IMG/VR virus record: IMGVR_UViG_3300027659_000212
Span: 1 to 23,706 of that record
Length of the DNA: 23,706 nucleotides
Source: a virus
Reading direction: 5' to 3' (one strand)
The notes under the pieces are model-generated. The model was given only the letters and a program-made list of their open reading frames with translations, ran no database searches and had not been told where the DNA came from. Numbering within the stretch: the stretch's first letter is position 1; each line of letters starts with the position of its first letter. Position numbers and translations under genes: made by a program. Below, piece after piece: positions 2,574 to 13,272 of this stretch.

Positions 2574-2888
2574 TTAATTGATTTGTTTACTAGCCATTTG
2601 CTGGCGAATCTTTTCATTCTCATCCGGGCCTTGTTCAGCACCCTCTGTGTCACGGTCTTGGCCCTTGAAGATAACTTGATCTTTTTCGATATCTCTGATG
2701 ATATTTTTCAGTGGATCTTGTTTAATCATATTAAACAAATCTGCTTTGTCTACAGTTATGCCATTCTTGTTTAAGACAGTCAAGAATTCATCAGTGGTCA
2801 TAGGTTCATTTTGCGTAGAAAGTTGATTAGCTACTGCTGTCAACTTAATACGCAATGGGTCATTATCACTGAATTCGTATAAGCGCAT
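2574..2888 (-). CDS. Conserved phage protein with MRLYEF N-terminus, probable virion or prohead protein (104 aa)
   Basis: This small, largely helical protein begins MRLYEFSD, like the MKLTEF and MRFSEF starts of two other genes here. Proteins with this start and a PLKNII-type segment (residues about 69-74) occur next to the same upstream neighbour in marine T4-like phages. The tail is charged and polar (GAEQGPDENEKIRQQMASKQ). Its ATG (2888) is separated by one base from the stop of the upstream gene (2890-2892). A 6-bp inverted repeat TAAGCG/CGCTTA (2880-2885, 2894-2899) places stop and start in one loop, which suggests coupled translation. Function is unknown; a capsid-associated role is inferred from neighbours and the T4 capsid-targeting resemblance. 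Confidence 0.6.
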   Translation of the reverse strand: MRLYEFSDNDPLRIKLTAVANQLSTQNEPMTTDEFLTVLNKNGITVDKADLFNMIKQDPLKNIIRDIEKDQVIFKGQDRDTEGAEQGPDENEKIRQQMASKQIN

Positions 2889-2889
2889 A

Positions 2890-3612
2890 TTAACGCTTAG
2901 TTCTGCCTACTGCTGGCATAGGCTCTTCTGGTTCTTCTGCTGGCATCTCAGGTTCTGCCATTGCGTCAGCACCCATTTCTTCACCACCTAGATCAGGTCC
3001 CATCTCGCCACCTGCCATTGGATCGGCTCCCATACCATTATCCATGCCTCCTGCATCCATACCAAAGCCGCCGCCTTGACCAGTCACAACACCTAATGCG
3101 CCTGTAAGACCTGTCTTAGATTGTGTTAGTGCGGCTTGTAGTGAAGTCAATGCCTCTGTTACTTGGCTACTAAATTGTTCACCTTCACTTGTTCCAAACT
3201 CACTGTTAACACCGTCAACAACTGCTGGTAATTCTTTTACTAGCATATCACTAACTTGTTCAATCATCTTTTGCATTGAATCAACCATTTCTTGTGCGGC
3301 TAGAACAACTTGAGATTTCTCAACTTCTTCATTCTCAACAACAATACGTGGATTGTACATTGGCATAGTTCTTAAATCACCGTAATGATGATTTAGTGCT
3401 TGTTCCATGAACACAAGTTTCAAGTAAGCAGGATTTTGTTCTCCACTCATTGACTTGTTTTTTGCTTCACTCATCAATCCTTTGACTTTTTTAAGCATAT
3501 TTTTAGTCTCATATAGACCTAGCTTCTCAACATTAAAGGATGTGTTGAAGTGTTCTTTTAGAGCTTGTTTAGCTACTGTTGTTGGTTTAGCGTTAAATTC
3601 GGTTAGTTTCAT
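2890..3612 (-). CDS. Conserved virion-associated protein with acidic Gly/Met/Pro tail (240 aa)
   Basis: It begins MKLTEFNAKPTTVAKQALKE. The first 150 residues are predicted mostly helical, with a conserved-looking segment around 72-110 (EEVEKSQVVLAAQEMVDSMQ). The C-terminal 70 residues are a low-complexity acidic tail rich in Gly, Met, Asp, Glu and Pro that ends in the basic VGRTKR. Helical core plus acidic disordered tail fits a scaffold, prohead-core or internal protein, and similar proteins are called virion structural in cyanophage and pelagiphage genomes. A late octamer at 3638-3645 and an AGGA ribosome-binding site before ATG 3612 support late expression. Precise function is not known. 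Confidence 0.6.
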   Translation of the reverse strand: MKLTEFNAKPTTVAKQALKEHFNTSFNVEKLGLYETKNMLKKVKGLMSEAKNKSMSGEQNPAYLKLVFMEQALNHHYGDLRTMPMYNPRIVVENEEVEKSQVVLAAQEMVDSMQKMIEQVSDMLVKELPAVVDGVNSEFGTSEGEQFSSQVTEALTSLQAALTQSKTGLTGALGVVTGQGGGFGMDAGGMDNGMGADPMAGGEMGPDLGGEEMGADAMAEPEMPAEEPEEPMPAVGRTKR

Positions 3613-4589: not shown

Positions 4590-4593
4590 ACAC

Positions 4594-4601
4594 TATTTAT
4601 A
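4594..4601 (-). promoter_or_regulatory. Exact T4 late promoter octamer TATAAATA
   Basis: TATAAATA on the minus strand, 4 bases before the ATG at 4589 and just after the terminator at 4605-4632. Initiation 5-6 bases downstream would fall at the start codon. Confidence 0.75.
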
Positions 4602-4604
4602 GAG

Positions 4605-4632
4605 GTAAAAAAGCCCGCAATAAAAGCGGGCT
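4605..4632 (-). terminator. Intrinsic terminator after the 4641-5580 unit
   Basis: On the minus strand, AGCCCGC (4626-4632), a 7-base loop and GCGGGCT (4612-4618) form a 7-bp GC-rich stem. It is followed directly by a run of T residues. It lies 8 bases after the stop codon at 4641. Confidence 0.9.
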
Positions 4633-4640
4633 ATATTAAT

Positions 4641-5345
4641 TTAATTTGGGATACCCATCATTCCCTTAATACTCGGCATTTCTACTTTAGCCTTATTAGT
4701 ATTTGCTTGCGCTATTTTTAACATTACTGGACCAAGTGCTAAATCAGCCTGGTCATTCTTTCCAGTAACAGCTTGGTCTAATGCTTGGTCTAATGCAAGT
4801 TTATATACCCCGGTATTATAGTTATTTCTTGTTAGATAGTCCTGAGTAAACTTATTATAATCAAACTGAGGATCTGTTTTTGCGTTACGTAATTTGGTTG
4901 AAAAGTTATTGATAAAAATTTGATCTGCTCTCTTATCCACTCTATTATTAATAGGGCCTGTTCGTCTTGCAGGGGCTGACAGGCTTCTGCCCTGGATAGC
5001 TTTATTAACATACTGTAGGTATACATCAGGAACATCACCGGGTGAATGCGCTCCAGATTGAATTGCATCAGCCCAAGAATTAATATGCTGAATGTCAGTT
5101 TCATCTGGTTTAGAACCTCCATGAAGACTGTATTGCATTGCTTGTTGTTGCGCTTGTGCAGCCTGTTGTTGTTGAGCATACGCCGGTGATGCAGGGGCAG
5201 CCTGCTGTTGTGGAGCCTGCTGTTGTGGAGCCTGCTGTTGTGGAGCCTGCTGTTGTGGAGCCTGCTGTTGCTGACGTTTAGCCCGTTGTCTTTGTCGGCG
5301 GGATCCGCCCCCCTCAATTAAAAAATCAAACTCAGAGAATCTCAT
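4641..5345 (-). CDS. Candidate packaged internal protein: capsid-targeting-like N-terminus, Arg/Gln-rich segment (234 aa)
   Basis: The N-terminus MRFSEFDFLIEGGG resembles the T4 capsid-targeting sequence of internal proteins (MKTYQEFIAEA). It contains L-I-E followed by G at residues 9-12, which fits the T4 prohead protease (gp21) preference for (L/I)-x-E before a small residue. Cleavage there would expose a very basic stretch (SRRQRQRAKR, 15-24). That is followed by a Gln/Ala/Pro repeat (QQQAP units, about 25-50) and further Gln/Ala-rich sequence to about 70. From about 80 on, the protein looks folded and helical with no enzyme motif I recognise. The ATG (5345) overlaps the stop of the upstream gene by 14 bases. 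The unit has a late octamer and ends at an intrinsic terminator. Packaging with DNA is inference; gene and lateness are well supported. Confidence 0.6.
   Translation of the reverse strand: MRFSEFDFLIEGGGSRRQRQRAKRQQQQAPQQQAPQQQAPQQQAPQQQAAPASPAYAQQQQAAQAQQQAMQYSLHGGSKPDETDIQHINSWADAIQSGAHSPGDVPDVYLQYVNKAIQGRSLSAPARRTGPINNRVDKRADQIFINNFSTKLRNAKTDPQFDYNKFTQDYLTRNNYNTGVYKLALDQALDQAVTGKNDQADLALGPVMLKIAQANTNKAKVEMPSIKGMMGIPN
5201..5270 (-). repeat. 15-bp tandem repeat encoding (QQQAP)n
   Basis: Four exact copies of the 15-mer cctgctgttgtggag follow one another from 5201 to 5260, with a further 10-base partial copy to 5270. Decayed relatives lie to the left (5161-5200). The unit is in frame and encodes Gln-Gln-Gln-Ala-Pro, so copy-number change would alter linker length without a frameshift. 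Confidence 0.95.
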
Positions 5346-5580
5346 CTTTTTTCCTCAAACTTTTTGAGAATCTATCCTGATCACGTGCTTTAATAGCACT
5401 AAGCAATTTTCTCTCTAGTATCTGAGCCTTTTCACTGTCATAGTGCTTGTTAATCATTTCCAATAGATTAATTGCGCTAGTGATGATATTATGGGCACGG
5501 CTTTCAATAATATGTGACGTATCACGATTATTTCCAATTGCTTCTAATTCTTCTAAAAGACTACGGGTTTTTCTTTGCAT
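5332..5580 (-). CDS. Conserved small helical phage protein (82 aa)
   Basis: It begins MQRKTRSLLEELEAIG and continues as two or three amphipathic helices, ending in KSLRKKDEIL. Close relatives with the RKTRSLLEEL start are frequent in marine T4-like phages, but I know of no function. ATG 5580 is preceded by TTAGGATC. The late octamer at 5602-5609 overlaps the stop codon of the helicase gene. It is the first gene of a late two-gene unit with the candidate internal protein and overlaps it by 14 bases. Confidence 0.6.
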   Translation of the reverse strand: MQRKTRSLLEELEAIGNNRDTSHIIESRAHNIITSAINLLEMINKHYDSEKAQILERKLLSAIKARDQDRFSKSLRKKDEIL

Positions 5581-5601: not shown

Positions 5602-5609
5602 TATTTATC
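5602..5609 (-). promoter_or_regulatory. T4-type late promoter overlapping the helicase stop codon
   Basis: GATAAATA on the minus strand. The helicase stop TGA (5608-5610) shares its last bases with the octamer (TGATAAATA). It would give a leader of about 20 bases before ATG 5580 and separates early replication genes from late genes. Confidence 0.7.
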
Positions 5610-9811: not shown

Positions 9812-10368
9812 TTAGGTGGCACTAATCCTGCTTTAATTAATTTCATATACGCTTTCTGTACGACAATAGCCTGACGTTCAGCATCTTCTACCGCTTTGTG
9901 GGTAGTCACGTGTCCACCGTCTTTAAGACTTACTCCAGTAATGTCAAATAATGTTCGTGTATCTCTTACTGTATAGAAAGCCCAGGGTATTGGATTAGGT
10001 CTAGTTGAAGTTTGTCTTAGTGCTGACTCCATGACAACAACGTCAAAGGGTGCACCGTGCGACCATACAGCACGACGGTTCCAACAAAACTTATATAGTT
10101 TCTCCATGCAGTCAGACAATGATTCACGTCCAGAATCTCCCATAGCTTCTTCTTGTGCAGCCTCGCTTTGAGTACTCCACCAACGTAACGTATCCTCGTT
10201 AATGCTACGATTGTAGATTTCAGTTTGATCCTCAATAGTAGGTCTTAGTTCTAACTTCTCTACTATCCCACTACCTTTAGGATCAAAACGTACAGCACCA
10301 ATTGTAAGTATAACACAATCAGGTGTTGTGTTCAAACTTTCAATATCTATCATTATATCCATTGCCAT
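9808..10368 (-). CDS. DEDDh 3'-5' exonuclease, DexA/Rv2179c-like (186 aa)
   Basis: The sequence carries a complete DEDDh set: D8 and E10 (IMIDIES), D109 (WSHGAPFDVVVMESAL), and H157 and D162 (THKAVEDAERQA). The WWSTQSEAAQEEA segment (63-75) after the first beta-sheet is typical of T4 DexA and Rv2179c-type exonucleases, and the length is comparable. It would remove nucleotides from 3' ends of DNA or RNA. ATG 10368 has AGGTGG 7 bases upstream; a second in-frame ATG follows at 10362. It follows the last small paralog without a gap and is coupled (ATGA) to the mini-DnaE gene. That mirrors the functional DnaQ-DnaE pairing, although direct partnership is inference. Confidence 0.85.
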   Translation of the reverse strand: MAMDIMIDIESLNTTPDCVILTIGAVRFDPKGSGIVEKLELRPTIEDQTEIYNRSINEDTLRWWSTQSEAAQEEAMGDSGRESLSDCMEKLYKFCWNRRAVWSHGAPFDVVVMESALRQTSTRPNPIPWAFYTVRDTRTLFDITGVSLKDGGHVTTHKAVEDAERQAIVVQKAYMKLIKAGLVPPK

Positions 10369-10369
10369 A

Positions 10370-10615
10370 TTACTGCCACCTTAATAGAAACATCATAAAG
10401 TCTGATTCTTGTAAAAAAGTTATGCTATTTGATTCACTGATATTATCAGTCCAACGAACCATTTCTAACTTGTCATTGTATCCGGGTTTGCCGAATGTTT
10501 TCCTACACCATTTCTGTATATCTTTGTTAGTGTGTTCAATGCTACGGACCCAATTAACAGTATAAAATGTTGTTTTTGATCCAGGATATAGATATTTCTT
10601 TTGAGTCAGTTCCAT
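10370..10615 (-). CDS. Small paralog I of the WC-FG/FxLRWQ family (81 aa)
   Basis: It carries both family signatures: the central helix DIQKWCRKTFGKPG and the C-terminal strand-helix ITFLQESDFMMFLLRWQ. An N-terminal beta-like part (KTTFYTVNWVRSIEH) precedes them. I choose ATG 10615, which shares a base with the stop of paralog H (TAATG). An ATG at 10627 in frame would overlap H by 13 bases. This is the last small member before the exonuclease gene. No known domain recognised; function unknown. Confidence 0.7.
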   Translation of the reverse strand: MELTQKKYLYPGSKTTFYTVNWVRSIEHTNKDIQKWCRKTFGKPGYNDKLEMVRWTDNISESNSITFLQESDFMMFLLRWQ

Positions 10616-10878
10616 TATTGTTTCCAAATTTCATACATGAATTTCAATTTATCATCCCATATCTCTATAGTCAACATGTTAGATATAAAAGTAAAGTCCC
10701 ATCCTACTCCACGCTCACCTAAATTTCTGCGACACCATTTGATATGGTCATTCGGATAATCTTTTCTTTTTCCATAATAAATTCTATAATATGTTTTGTT
10801 TCCAGTAACTTCTACACTTTTAAATTCTTGGCCTACTGAAACTTTTCTTAATATCCCGTTAATATGTTGTATAGCCAT
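10615..10878 (-). CDS. Small paralog H of the WC-FG/FxLRWQ family (87 aa)
   Basis: A central segment HIKWCRRNLGERGVGW closely matches that of paralog I (W-C-R-x-x-x-G-x-x-G), preceded by a Lys-rich beta-like part (YYRIYYGKRKDYP). The C-terminus IEIWDDKLKFMYEIWKQ is the most diverged version of the family motif, with Tyr and Trp-Lys replacing Phe and Arg-Trp. ATG 10878 overlaps the stop of G in TAATG. Function is unknown. Confidence 0.7.
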   Translation of the reverse strand: MAIQHINGILRKVSVGQEFKSVEVTGNKTYYRIYYGKRKDYPNDHIKWCRRNLGERGVGWDFTFISNMLTIEIWDDKLKFMYEIWKQ

Positions 10879-11096
10879 TATTGATATTTTAGTGTAAACC
10901 AGGTTGCAAGTGATTCTTTATAGAATTTGAATACAGTGTATCTATTGTACACGTTATCTCCACTCCAGTCATTAAAAACGGGTTTATGATATTCAAAGTC
11001 AAATTCAATACCTTGGAGATATCCTTTACTACGCAACTCACGCACTATTTCCATAACCTCGTTGGGTTGTTTGTCTATTAAAGTTACAGTTATCAT
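10878..11096 (-). CDS. Small paralog G of the WC-FG/FxLRWQ family (72 aa)
   Basis: The shortest-type member. An N-terminal beta strand (MITVTLIDKQ) leads to a helix MEIVRELRSKGYLQG that replaces the WC..FG core (no Trp-Cys here). It ends in the family tail VFKFYKESLATWFTLKYQ. ATG 11096 overlaps the stop of F by 4 bases (ATGA). Membership rests mainly on the C-terminal motif and location. The strand-helix arrangement resembles half of a ferredoxin-like fold, but this is speculative. Confidence 0.65.
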   Translation of the reverse strand: MITVTLIDKQPNEVMEIVRELRSKGYLQGIEFDFEYHKPVFNDWSGDNVYNRYTVFKFYKESLATWFTLKYQ

Positions 11097-11341
11097 TGTG
11101 GAAATTTTATTAAAAAGAAACTAGCATAGCTTTCATTTTCAAATGTAAGGGTCCAATGTTTACTTTTTGAATTCTGAGTCCAATGTTTATTAACTACTCC
11201 CGGATCCCATGTATGTTTTGCTATCCAGCCCTGTCCACCGATACTGTTATGAATGTAATGCAATCTAGGCCCAATATTCTTTGCTAGCCATTGTTCTTCT
11301 CTTGCCGTTAATCTATTTTTAAGTTTAATAGTTATTGCCAT
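11093..11341 (-). CDS. Small paralog F of the WC-FG/FxLRWQ family (82 aa)
   Basis: It begins MAITIKLKNRLTAREEQWLA. The central segment EEQWLAKNIGPRLHY is the diverged core, followed by GGQGWIAKHTW and the tail WTLTFENESYASFFLIKFPQ. I choose ATG 11341, within ten bases of the stop of E. Earlier in-frame Met codons (to 11356) overlap E more. Function is unknown. Confidence 0.65.
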   Translation of the reverse strand: MAITIKLKNRLTAREEQWLAKNIGPRLHYIHNSIGGQGWIAKHTWDPGVVNKHWTQNSKSKHWTLTFENESYASFFLIKFPQ

Positions 11342-11550
11342 CTCAATTGAAACCACATACGTTGTTTCTCATCTTTGACACTCCAAACATCCATGCCCGC
11401 CATTGTGCCTTCTAATGCTACAAGTATACTCTTTTCCCAGCACCAATCGTATATGTCTGCTCTTAATGCTGATGGCAATAGAATGTCCGTACTCTCAACA
11501 GTACGAACATAACCCGTATCAGTCATTTTCCATTCTTCTAAATTAATCAT
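11332..11550 (-). CDS. Small paralog E of the WC-FG/FxLRWQ family (72 aa)
   Basis: The core IYDWCWEKSILVALEG has the Trp-Cys pair but lacks the Phe-Gly, and the tail WSVKDEKQRMWFQLRWQ is a near-consensus copy. I choose ATG 11550, which forms an ATGA overlap with the stop of D. ATG 11556 is also possible because the D terminus reads ATGGCAATGA in this frame. Function is unknown. Confidence 0.65.
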   Translation of the reverse strand: MINLEEWKMTDTGYVRTVESTDILLPSALRADIYDWCWEKSILVALEGTMAGMDVWSVKDEKQRMWFQLRWQ

Positions 11551-11852
11551 TGCCATCTCAATAAAAACCATTCGCAATCCGGCTTGTCTCTAAACCAAAA
11601 CTTAGCATTGTTAGCATACCATCTATCACCGGGCGTCCATACACCGGGTGCGCCGGGTGTGCCACTGGGTCCGAATACAGATACACACCAAGCAGTCATT
11701 TTGTTCCATTCATTCGGTGATATTATAGGATCAATCTGATGATAGGGCATGTCATACGCATATCCTATGCCTGCATAGTTCACACTACGTATTGCCGCCC
11801 AACCGCCGTTAGATCCATATAACTTATTAGTCATTTGTCTTTTTTTAATCAT
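11547..11852 (-). CDS. Small paralog D of the WC-FG/FxLRWQ family (101 aa)
   Basis: The largest member. An N-terminal Gly/Tyr-rich part (GSNGGWAAIRSVNYAGIGYA) is followed by the core MTAWCVSVFGPSGTPGAPG and the tail FWFRDKPDCEWFLLRWQ, one of the clearest copies. I choose ATG 11852 (ATGA overlap with the stop of C). In-frame Met codons at 11858 and 11873 would overlap C more. The aromatic-rich surface suggests binding of a protein or nucleic acid, but no function is known. Confidence 0.7.
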   Translation of the reverse strand: MIKKRQMTNKLYGSNGGWAAIRSVNYAGIGYAYDMPYHQIDPIISPNEWNKMTAWCVSVFGPSGTPGAPGVWTPGDRWYANNAKFWFRDKPDCEWFLLRWQ

Positions 11853-12106
11853 TGCCATCGCAGACTGAACCATTCAGCTTCTTTTTTAGACTTGAATATA
11901 AATGTTTTTCCTCTGGATACAAAACCTTCTTTAACTTTTTCTGATACCCAATCTTTGATATCAATTGACTGTTCTCTACTTATCAACGTTGACAACTCAA
12001 TAGTGTACCAACCTGAATCAGTCAACAAGTCTTTTGTAATATCAAAGTCAAGCTGTTCAGAGTATTCTCTGGCTAAACTCTCAACAATTTCATCTTCTAG
12101 TGTCAT
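11849..12106 (-). CDS. Small paralog C of the WC-FG/FxLRWQ family (85 aa)
   Basis: An acidic N-terminal half (MTLEDEIVESLAREYSEQ) is followed by a strand SGWYTIELSTLI, a diverged core IKDWVSEKVKEGF and the clear tail FIFKSKKEAEWFSLRWQ. ATG 12106 overlaps the stop of B by 4 bases (ATGA). Function is unknown. Confidence 0.7.
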   Translation of the reverse strand: MTLEDEIVESLAREYSEQLDFDITKDLLTDSGWYTIELSTLISREQSIDIKDWVSEKVKEGFVSRGKTFIFKSKKEAEWFSLRWQ

Positions 12107-12360
12107 AGGTATTTTAGTACAAAGAATAGATATTTTTTTTCGTCAATAACTTCATAGTTTTCAGTTAAATGCCCCTCATTATTGTAAATGATTCTAATTC
12201 CAAATGTTTGTAACATCCATTGATTGAATAGTAAGCTAGAATCTTTTCTATCAAATTGAGCCTTCAATTTTCGTACAGCCGCCCAATACTTCCATCTTCT
12301 AGCTTTTCGGTCACGATCCCATTCTTCAAAGGATTCATCTGCCGGATTATAGCCTCTCAT
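12103..12360 (-). CDS. Small paralog B of the WC-FG/FxLRWQ family (85 aa)
   Basis: A basic, Trp-rich N-terminal half (EEWDRDRKARRWKYWAAVRK) leads to the core LFNQWMLQTFGIR and a diverged tail VIDEKKYLFFVLKYL. ATG 12360 overlaps the stop of the amidotransferase-like gene (ATGA). Membership is supported by the W....FG helix, tail and place in the series. The basic half could bind nucleic acid; this is inference. Confidence 0.6.
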   Translation of the reverse strand: MRGYNPADESFEEWDRDRKARRWKYWAAVRKLKAQFDRKDSSLLFNQWMLQTFGIRIIYNNEGHLTENYEVIDEKKYLFFVLKYL

Positions 12361-13001
12361 CGTTGCATTAATTCATTCGTAAAATTTAATAGAAGTTTGT
12401 GATGTACGCCATCATGGTAATGTGCTTTCATCCAGCTATAGCTTTCATACCAGAATGGTTGACTCTCTGGGTGACACCCAATCAATCCTAATCTGTTTTG
12501 AAATATAGCCATTGCATCTCCATTACTATAAGTAGCAACTGTCTCAAACTTTGTGTCATCGCCCACTAATGCACATCCATCATACCAGAACATTTTCATT
12601 GGCTCGTCTCTCCAAGTGATAGGCATGTTCTTTGCATGTGGTCTACGTGTATCAGTTCCCGGGCGCTTGAGATATTGTACAGCATCTACGCTTTTAAGTA
12701 AAGAGAAATAGTGCGAACCTGCCCAATATGCGCCCATGCATATACCCAGATATCTGCCACCATTGTTAACAAAGTCAATTACTCTTTTCCCGCTGTGTTC
12801 AAATAGTTTCTCATAACTGTCACTATCTCCAAATCCTCCAGGAACAGCAACCATATCAACTCCTTTAAAGAAGTCTTTTTCTAGGGCATTTTTAGAAAAT
12901 AATTTGAAGTTATACTTATTGCCCAAAGAACTCATTATTCCATTGGAACTTTGTACTGAGCATTTTGGATCTGCTACAAAAAGGGCAATTGTGGGCTTCA
13001 T
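12357..13001 (-). CDS. Class-I glutamine-amidotransferase-like protein, biotin-ligase-N (BPL_N) type (214 aa)
   Basis: The fold signature is clear: PGGFGDSDSY (54-63) for the oxyanion turn; GRYLGICMGAYWAGSHYF (82-99) with nucleophile C88 in the G-x-C-x-G elbow; and GCHPES (175-180) providing H177 and E179. This is a full Cys-His-Glu triad, so hydrolase or amidotransferase chemistry is possible. BPL_N proteins resemble the N-terminus of eukaryotic biotin-protein ligase and are related to the DJ-1/PfpI and GATase1 group, but their substrate is not established. There is no synthetase or ligase domain fused or adjacent. The gene lies between paralogs A and B and is coupled to B by ATGA. A 34-base gap precedes it, with a TATACT-like box too near the ATG to assign. 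Confidence 0.75.
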   Translation of the reverse strand: MKPTIALFVADPKCSVQSSNGIMSSLGNKYNFKLFSKNALEKDFFKGVDMVAVPGGFGDSDSYEKLFEHSGKRVIDFVNNGGRYLGICMGAYWAGSHYFSLLKSVDAVQYLKRPGTDTRRPHAKNMPITWRDEPMKMFWYDGCALVGDDTKFETVATYSNGDAMAIFQNRLGLIGCHPESQPFWYESYSWMKAHYHDGVHHKLLLNFTNELMQR

Positions 13002-13035
13002 TAGTATAATATTTAGTCAAGCAAATATTACACTA

Positions 13036-13272
13036 TTATAACCACCTGAGACTGAAATGTATAGCGTCTTTCTCATCTTGGAAATAAAAATCCATATAAT
13101 TCTCAGTGGGATGAGTACTATATTTGTCTCCGGGTAACCCAAACTGTTCCATAGCCCATATACAGGTTTCGTCCCATCGGGCTATAGAATCACCTTTCTT
13201 CCAGGGAAGACGAACTTTAGTAGCCTGCGATACGAAGGGTGTCTTTAATTTGTTGTTTAAGGTCTGGTTCAC
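13036..13272 (-). CDS. Small paralog A of the WC-FG/FxLRWQ family (78 aa)
   Basis: The core ETCIWAMEQFGLPGDKY and the tail FYFQDEKDAIHFSLRWL both match the family well. The only usable start I see is GTG at 13272, 56 bases inside the upstream gene; a shorter form with another rare start cannot be excluded. It is separated from the other members by the amidotransferase-like gene. Function is unknown. Confidence 0.65.
   Translation of the reverse strand: MNQTLNNKLKTPFVSQATKVRLPWKKGDSIARWDETCIWAMEQFGLPGDKYSTHPTENYMDFYFQDEKDAIHFSLRWL

Follow-up and report, generated by a model that had tools for sequence, protein, structure and literature searches.

The protein encoded on the minus strand at positions 4641..5345 of the analysed window, a whole virus fragment record of 23.7 kb, most probably (at odds of about three in four) carries a T4-type capsid-targeting propeptide that would be cut by the prohead protease after Glu11, leaving the mature protein in the phage head. 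This explanation builds on sequence conservation, the position specificity of the motif, the breadth of protein bodies that bear it, a matching site in the major capsid protein and mass spectrometry statistics from phage PA5oct; from these we infer docking and cleavage, packaging and injection, as well as whatever part the linker behind the tag may play. As judged by comparison of protein starts, the target N-terminus is one case of a wider start signal in these phages, with the core M[KR]xx[ED][FILVM].

The window and the target gene

The window is part of the genome of an uncultured jumbo phage of the T4-like type: its UvsX shares 64-70% identity with the UvsX of T4-like jumbo phages, among them Vibrio phage 2.275.O, CBB, GAP32 and Atu_ph07; megablast of the whole window against phages gave no match. 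The 23.7 kb contain no protease or capsid gene, which we counted against capsid targeting. Elsewhere in the window, positions 10370-13272 of the minus strand hold a run of small ORFs whose C-termini resemble WFxLRW or a variant, and in L295-L298 related small proteins combine a WFxLRW-like end with a copied peptide of the major capsid protein (PF07068 match).

The initial annotation had described an Arg/Gln-rich ORF beginning MRFSEFDFLIE|GGG, and this ORF is real: it runs for 234 aa from an ATG, with the N-terminal sequence MRFSEFDFLIEGGGSRRQRQRAKRQQQQAPQQQ... and the opening MRFSEFDFLIEGGGSRRQRQRAKR. Residues 1-11 (5313..5345, minus) form the predicted capsid-targeting propeptide, as suggested by an alignment of 33 sequences and by motif statistics. 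Residues 12-75 (5121..5312, minus) are basic and Gln/Pro/Ala-rich, with repeated APQQQ units (27 Gln among 64 residues; net charge +6 over residues 12-31) and low pLDDT over much of their length; because this arm varies in the family alignment, we regard it as a variable linker, which might serve DNA packing as the initial annotation proposed. The confident conserved part is a C-terminal helical domain at residues 131-221 (4683..4955, minus), with an AlphaFold2 pLDDT of about 75-96 in blocks of ten; the mean over the whole protein is 66.5 and the remainder is low-confidence. The target belongs to no Pfam family and matches no PHROG better than E 0.016, tblastn against 50,697 phage records returned no match, and a fold search with its model found no viral match at E ≤ 0.001. 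Against the PDB the best Z score was 5.8, from which we draw no conclusion because it lies inside the range expected for helical bundles, and the best hit of the family profile among solved structures was no better than E 0.014.

Upstream, and overlapping the target start by 14 nt, lies an 82-aa gene (5332..5580, minus) of PHROG 11854, 'virion structural protein'. The element GATAAATA (5602..5609, minus), 5' of this gene, resembles the T4 late-promoter consensus, and the gene pair is probably transcribed from it. A terminator-like hairpin with a T run (4612..4632, minus) stands directly 3' of the target ORF.

A variable family beside a conserved virion gene

The 82-aa gene is highly conserved, with 533 relatives in IMG/VR. 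In the best 80 of these 533 loci, which were used as anchors, the gene that follows almost always has a tag-like start (MRANEFINE, MRASEFILDE, MKLNEVITE, MKLKEVIVE or MKANEFIVE, for example) and then a divergent body. Within a hand-picked, non-redundant subset of these best 80 loci comprising 39 family members, the core motif as scored is present in 38, and an [ILVFMN]xE site is found by about residue 16 in 34. Among the five exceptions, L084 was called from an internal start, L056, L070 and L083 have a Glu at another spacing or with another P3 residue, and L064 has no Glu site, which counts against targeting. An alignment of the window with 32 members (n=33; L006 was left out as a near copy, and the six divergent or mis-started L023, L064, L070, L080, L083 and L084 were also left out) has Met1 and Glu11, the predicted P1 residue, as its sole invariant columns, with Glu5, Phe144 and Phe148 nearly invariant. 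A body HMM built without four window-like sequences still recovers the body of the window protein, at E 9e-10 in the searched protein set. Sequence comparison thus describes the family as a variable linker, Gln-rich in the window, followed by a conserved C-terminal helical domain and encoded beside the 82-aa gene.

Some members differ in detail. The L009 strain has LTE|A in place of the LIE|G of the window. In one near-identical contig (L004/L007), a repeat-derived insertion near position 10350 shifts the target frame after about 38 residues; this frameshift inside the repeat may be an assembly artefact or a real mutation. Tails rich in xE[ST]R, resembling a C-terminal cleavage site, occur on proteins of L018, L033 and L053, and a similar one on a core protein encoded near the protease (G011, 66191-67030).

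The fixed place of this one tagged family beside conserved virion genes would also suit a structural or scaffold-like protein of the head core, processed like T4 gp67/gp68 and then consumed or retained rather than delivered, and a few relatives point the same way, their xE[ST]RR tails resembling the end of the core protein that G011 and G016 encode close to the protease. Its body is highly variable, however, and absent by sequence from the named phages, unlike a core scaffold. We consider such a role less likely, if still the most serious alternative, and lean towards a head-resident protein that enters the host.

A start signal carried by unrelated proteins

In nine related environmental records, with genes called by our own heuristic, M[KR].{2}EF opens 50 of 2001 predicted starts and appears 0-2 times at every other spacing. 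The initial annotation had guessed at a shared targeting signal from two other genes and suggested a motif search at protein starts; the signal is far wider than guessed, and a search for EF followed by a Glu site (M[KR].{2}[ED][FILV][ILVF]xE) found it at 35 of the 2001 starts of these nine records, against 0-1 at other spacings. The core motif, counted in seven environmental records, occurs at 59 of 1173 predicted starts but at only 14 of 5430 internal Met residues, and within-protein shuffling yields a mean of 5.25 and a maximum of 12 where 59 were observed. Core plus Glu site is found 33 times at starts and 3 times at internal Met in the same seven records, and [ILVFM]xE follows the core immediately in 25 of the 59 core starts (shuffled mean 1.17, maximum 7 in 2000). 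Many M[KR]xxEF starts have no cleavage-type site, and Vibrio phage 2.275.O has nine core starts, one of them with the site, among 461; both observations were counted against targeting.

A DNA pattern for MRA[NST]EF[ILV]xE matched at least 120 stretches of IMG/VR, whereas a permuted arrangement of those codons matched 5 times in the whole collection. From the matches listed, 131 tag sites were parsed, 127 of which open an ORF that either has at least 60 aa or is truncated at the contig end; four sites with less than 40 aa were dropped before clustering. Single linkage sorts the 127 listed tagged proteins of at least 40 aa into at least 37 groups with unrelated bodies, and into 62 if 60% coverage is required. 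Single phages use the tag repeatedly: the 367-kb record (G001) encodes nine tagged proteins in seven body clusters, G016 ten in eight and G004 seven in seven. Residue counts were taken over 121 unique N-termini among the matches listed, one of which has Ser2, not Arg, as the DNA pattern allows. Small or polar residues predominate at P1' (G 23, S 17, A 14, R 13, D 12), and Pro occurs there in 0 of the 121. We also looked for a C-terminal tag common to many proteins and rejected it; few cases look real, and the rest are one conserved unrelated family or chance.

Capsid protein, prohead protease and virion proteins

In all ten gp23 homologues compared (five environmental, five named), an LxE|[SNT] site directly precedes a conserved block, which should open the mature capsid protein, the capsid cut itself being what we infer from this arrangement. 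The hydrophobic-x-Glu site of the tag has the same form. An S77 (gp21-type) protease is present in five of five named relatives and in one of ten environmental records, the 367-kb one, the other records being fragments. In one tagged protein, L175, the Glu of the tag runs straight into a capsid-like mature start, TASAGATTSGNIA; in another, L223, EESATAGATSSGNVA is internal. Segments of this capsid-like type have 5 matches among 3377 sequences (L175, L223 and three capsid proteins), against 5 in 20 whole-set shuffles.

The core motif is statistically tied to virion mass spectrometry in PA5oct. It opens 7 of 93 MS-noted proteins and 4 of 387 other predicted ORFs (one-sided Fisher p=0.0014), or 6 of the 387 others when any ATG is allowed (p=0.005), an excess that consists of seven proteins and is measured against non-MS genes of our own calling. 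The PA5oct block gp243-gp262 matches the window in gene order around the helicase and the 82-aa gene, and many of its products are MS-noted. Both gp258, at the position of the target, and the adjoining gp257 have ESI-MS/MS notes, although gp258 shows no detectable homology to the target, which we counted against targeting.

Two neighbouring genes of the window, which the initial annotation had taken to share the signal, begin as described, MKLTEF... (2890..3612, minus) and MRLYEF... (2574..2888, minus), but have only the M[KR]xxEF half of it: in neither family does any of the seven members listed have [ILVFM]xE near the start. Since a cleavage-type site is lacking, they are weak examples, and the interpretation given in the initial annotation is, overall, partly supported. 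The MKLTEF... protein is homologous to a PA5oct MS-noted protein (156341-157528). Such families would suit an N-terminus that remains uncut and serves as a docking motif for virion assembly; a short helix would then bind a component of the core, neck or tail, and binding would be what keeps the Glu. We judge this improbable for the target: where the site exists, its hydrophobic-x-Glu has the form of the capsid site, Pro is never found at P1' among the listed N-termini, and the tag of L175 continues as a capsid-like mature start.

Selection on protein or on nucleic acid

Usage of synonymous codons for E5 and F6 in the tag follows that of the bodies, which argues for selection on the protein. 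That the start similarity arises instead at the level of DNA or RNA, through a promoter, ribosome loading or the context of the start codon, is very hard to credit: Arg2 is indeed mostly AGA (98 of 121 listed tags, against 33% in bodies), but the E5 and F6 codons vary as in bodies, the signal reaches residues 7 and 9, and TAAATA within 60 nt upstream is not commoner for tagged genes (6 of 47, against 486 of 1910 genes), for which reason a special link between tag and late promoter was also rejected.

The position of TAAATA is an observation of its own. In the nine environmental records it ends 4-5 nt before the start codon in 106 of the 486 genes that have it within 60 nt (in the window, at 4590-4601), and in another set of genes the distance to that codon is around 17-23 nt. 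From these positions, late mRNAs may have very short or absent leaders.

Comparison with known systems

The closest precedent seems to be that of the T4 internal proteins. IPIII and IPII (record X04567) begin MKTYQEFIAE|A, with an annotated signal peptide of 10 residues. According to excerpts of PMC9026906, ten residues are enough to package IPIII, positions 4 and 7 of the T4 capsid-targeting sequence (CTS) matter for targeting and positions 8 and 10 for processing, and foreign proteins fused to it are packaged and delivered. Excerpts of PMC12373910 describe at least ten leader-bearing proteins in T-even phages, found by their leader, and state that Ip1-3 inhibit type IV restriction enzymes. 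As in IPI, IPII and IPIII, the phages studied here have a short N-terminal peptide, EF then hydrophobic-x-Glu, common to otherwise unrelated proteins (as within G001, G016 and G004); an S77 protease occurs in the clade. The predicted propeptide of the target has 11 residues, and the sites of its family lie mostly within about 16, compared with about 10-19 for the T4 CTS; its EF followed by LIE|G corresponds to the aromatic/acidic segment and hydrophobic-x-Glu of T4, and its site matches that of the capsid protein of the clade. The T4-like targeting peptide with a prohead-protease-type site that the initial annotation had read from the sequence is therefore well supported by comparison, through the invariant Glu11, the similar capsid sites, the tag on unrelated proteins and the PA5oct link.

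There are also differences. The mature part of the target showed no sequence homology to IPI, IPII or IPIII by Pfam, PHROG or tblastn, the tag consensus is mostly MRAxEFIxE, of 9 residues (11 in the target), and the tagged bodies, unrelated to the T4 internal proteins, include enzyme domains and belong to uncultured jumbo phages. In phiKZ/SPN3US, excerpts of PMC5694885 report head proteins that the prohead protease cuts after xxE and that are ejected; the propeptides of such giant phages are mostly longer than 100 residues, whereas the predicted ones of 9-11 residues here differ from the long ones of the ejection and inner-body proteins and make the mechanism T4-like. Excerpts of PMC5512222 present polyvalent proteins as effectors and enzymes that phages presumably package and inject; what identifies them is their multidomain architecture together with their gene context, rather than a common N-terminal tag. 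We found no description of so wide a tag in the excerpts of open-licence PMC literature consulted (including PMC7824862, PMC6892783, PMC13282480 and PMC3037559), and what seems to be new is how broadly uncultured T4-like jumbo phages use it, along with the distinct consensus and the enzymes among its cargo.

Under the T4-type propeptide that we favour, the target would dock on the prohead core late in infection through the short M[KR]xxEF segment and the shell would then enclose it. The gp21-type (S77) protease would cut after Glu11 (LIE|G), at the kind of site used in the major capsid protein, and would free the mature protein (GGGSRRQ... linker and C-terminal helical domain) inside the head. 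There it would stay with the DNA, and it would probably enter the host together with it. In these phages the same tag heads dozens of unrelated proteins.

Cargo of the tagged proteins and its meaning

Pfam domains among tagged proteins include SLT, GH19, LysM, GNAT, TAT_signal, DUF6267, DUF6321, DUF6934, ASCH, GGACT, HD_4 and NT5C; the scans of the two tagged sets, A1 and A2, give counts and not member names, with few domains tied to named proteins, and the looser set A2 also contains proteins that probably fell into it by chance, for example a halogenase and a radical-SAM protein. The further labels KxDG nucleotidyltransferase, isochorismatase-like, ppGpp-hydrolase-like and methyltransferase-like, assigned by eye, are tentative. 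One tagged protein (L207:413) reads MRASEFIAE|DLSRRGFLRGLGAAGA; immediately after the tag, residues 10-30 match a Tat-like signal with a score slightly below the curated cut-off, and LysM and a transglycosylase domain follow; another (G003, 120207) has a weaker Tat match and GH19. On the same contig, a stretch of about 2.4 kb (L207:413-2824) holds the starts of five tagged genes.

The six best PDB folds for the model of L253 (10035-10928; mean pLDDT 53.4, low-confidence) are DarT ADP-ribosyltransferases, at E 3e-4 to 3.5e-3. Tagged proteins of L161, L165 and L228 likewise have DarT ADP-ribosyltransferases as their best predicted-fold match. On these models, the DarT-like tagged proteins are possible counterparts of T4 Alt. 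A PADLOC scan of 62 tagged representatives detected 0 families, and tblastn of tagged L200 and L173 against phages gave no match.

Taken jointly, uncultured aquatic T4-like jumbo phages might use one short, interchangeable tag to fill the head with many and varied effectors and enzymes destined for injection, and some might add a Tat-like signal behind it, which cleavage by the prohead protease would unmask, allowing export of a wall hydrolase to the periplasm after injection; this proposal could equally prove right or wrong. The proteins that large phages inject with their DNA are mostly unknown, and a tag readable in the sequence would turn that question into a list. It points to at least 37 unrelated bodies, many without a known family, which include wall hydrolases, acetyltransferases and a DarT-like ADP-ribosyltransferase. 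Each tagged protein becomes a candidate for counter-defence or host takeover.
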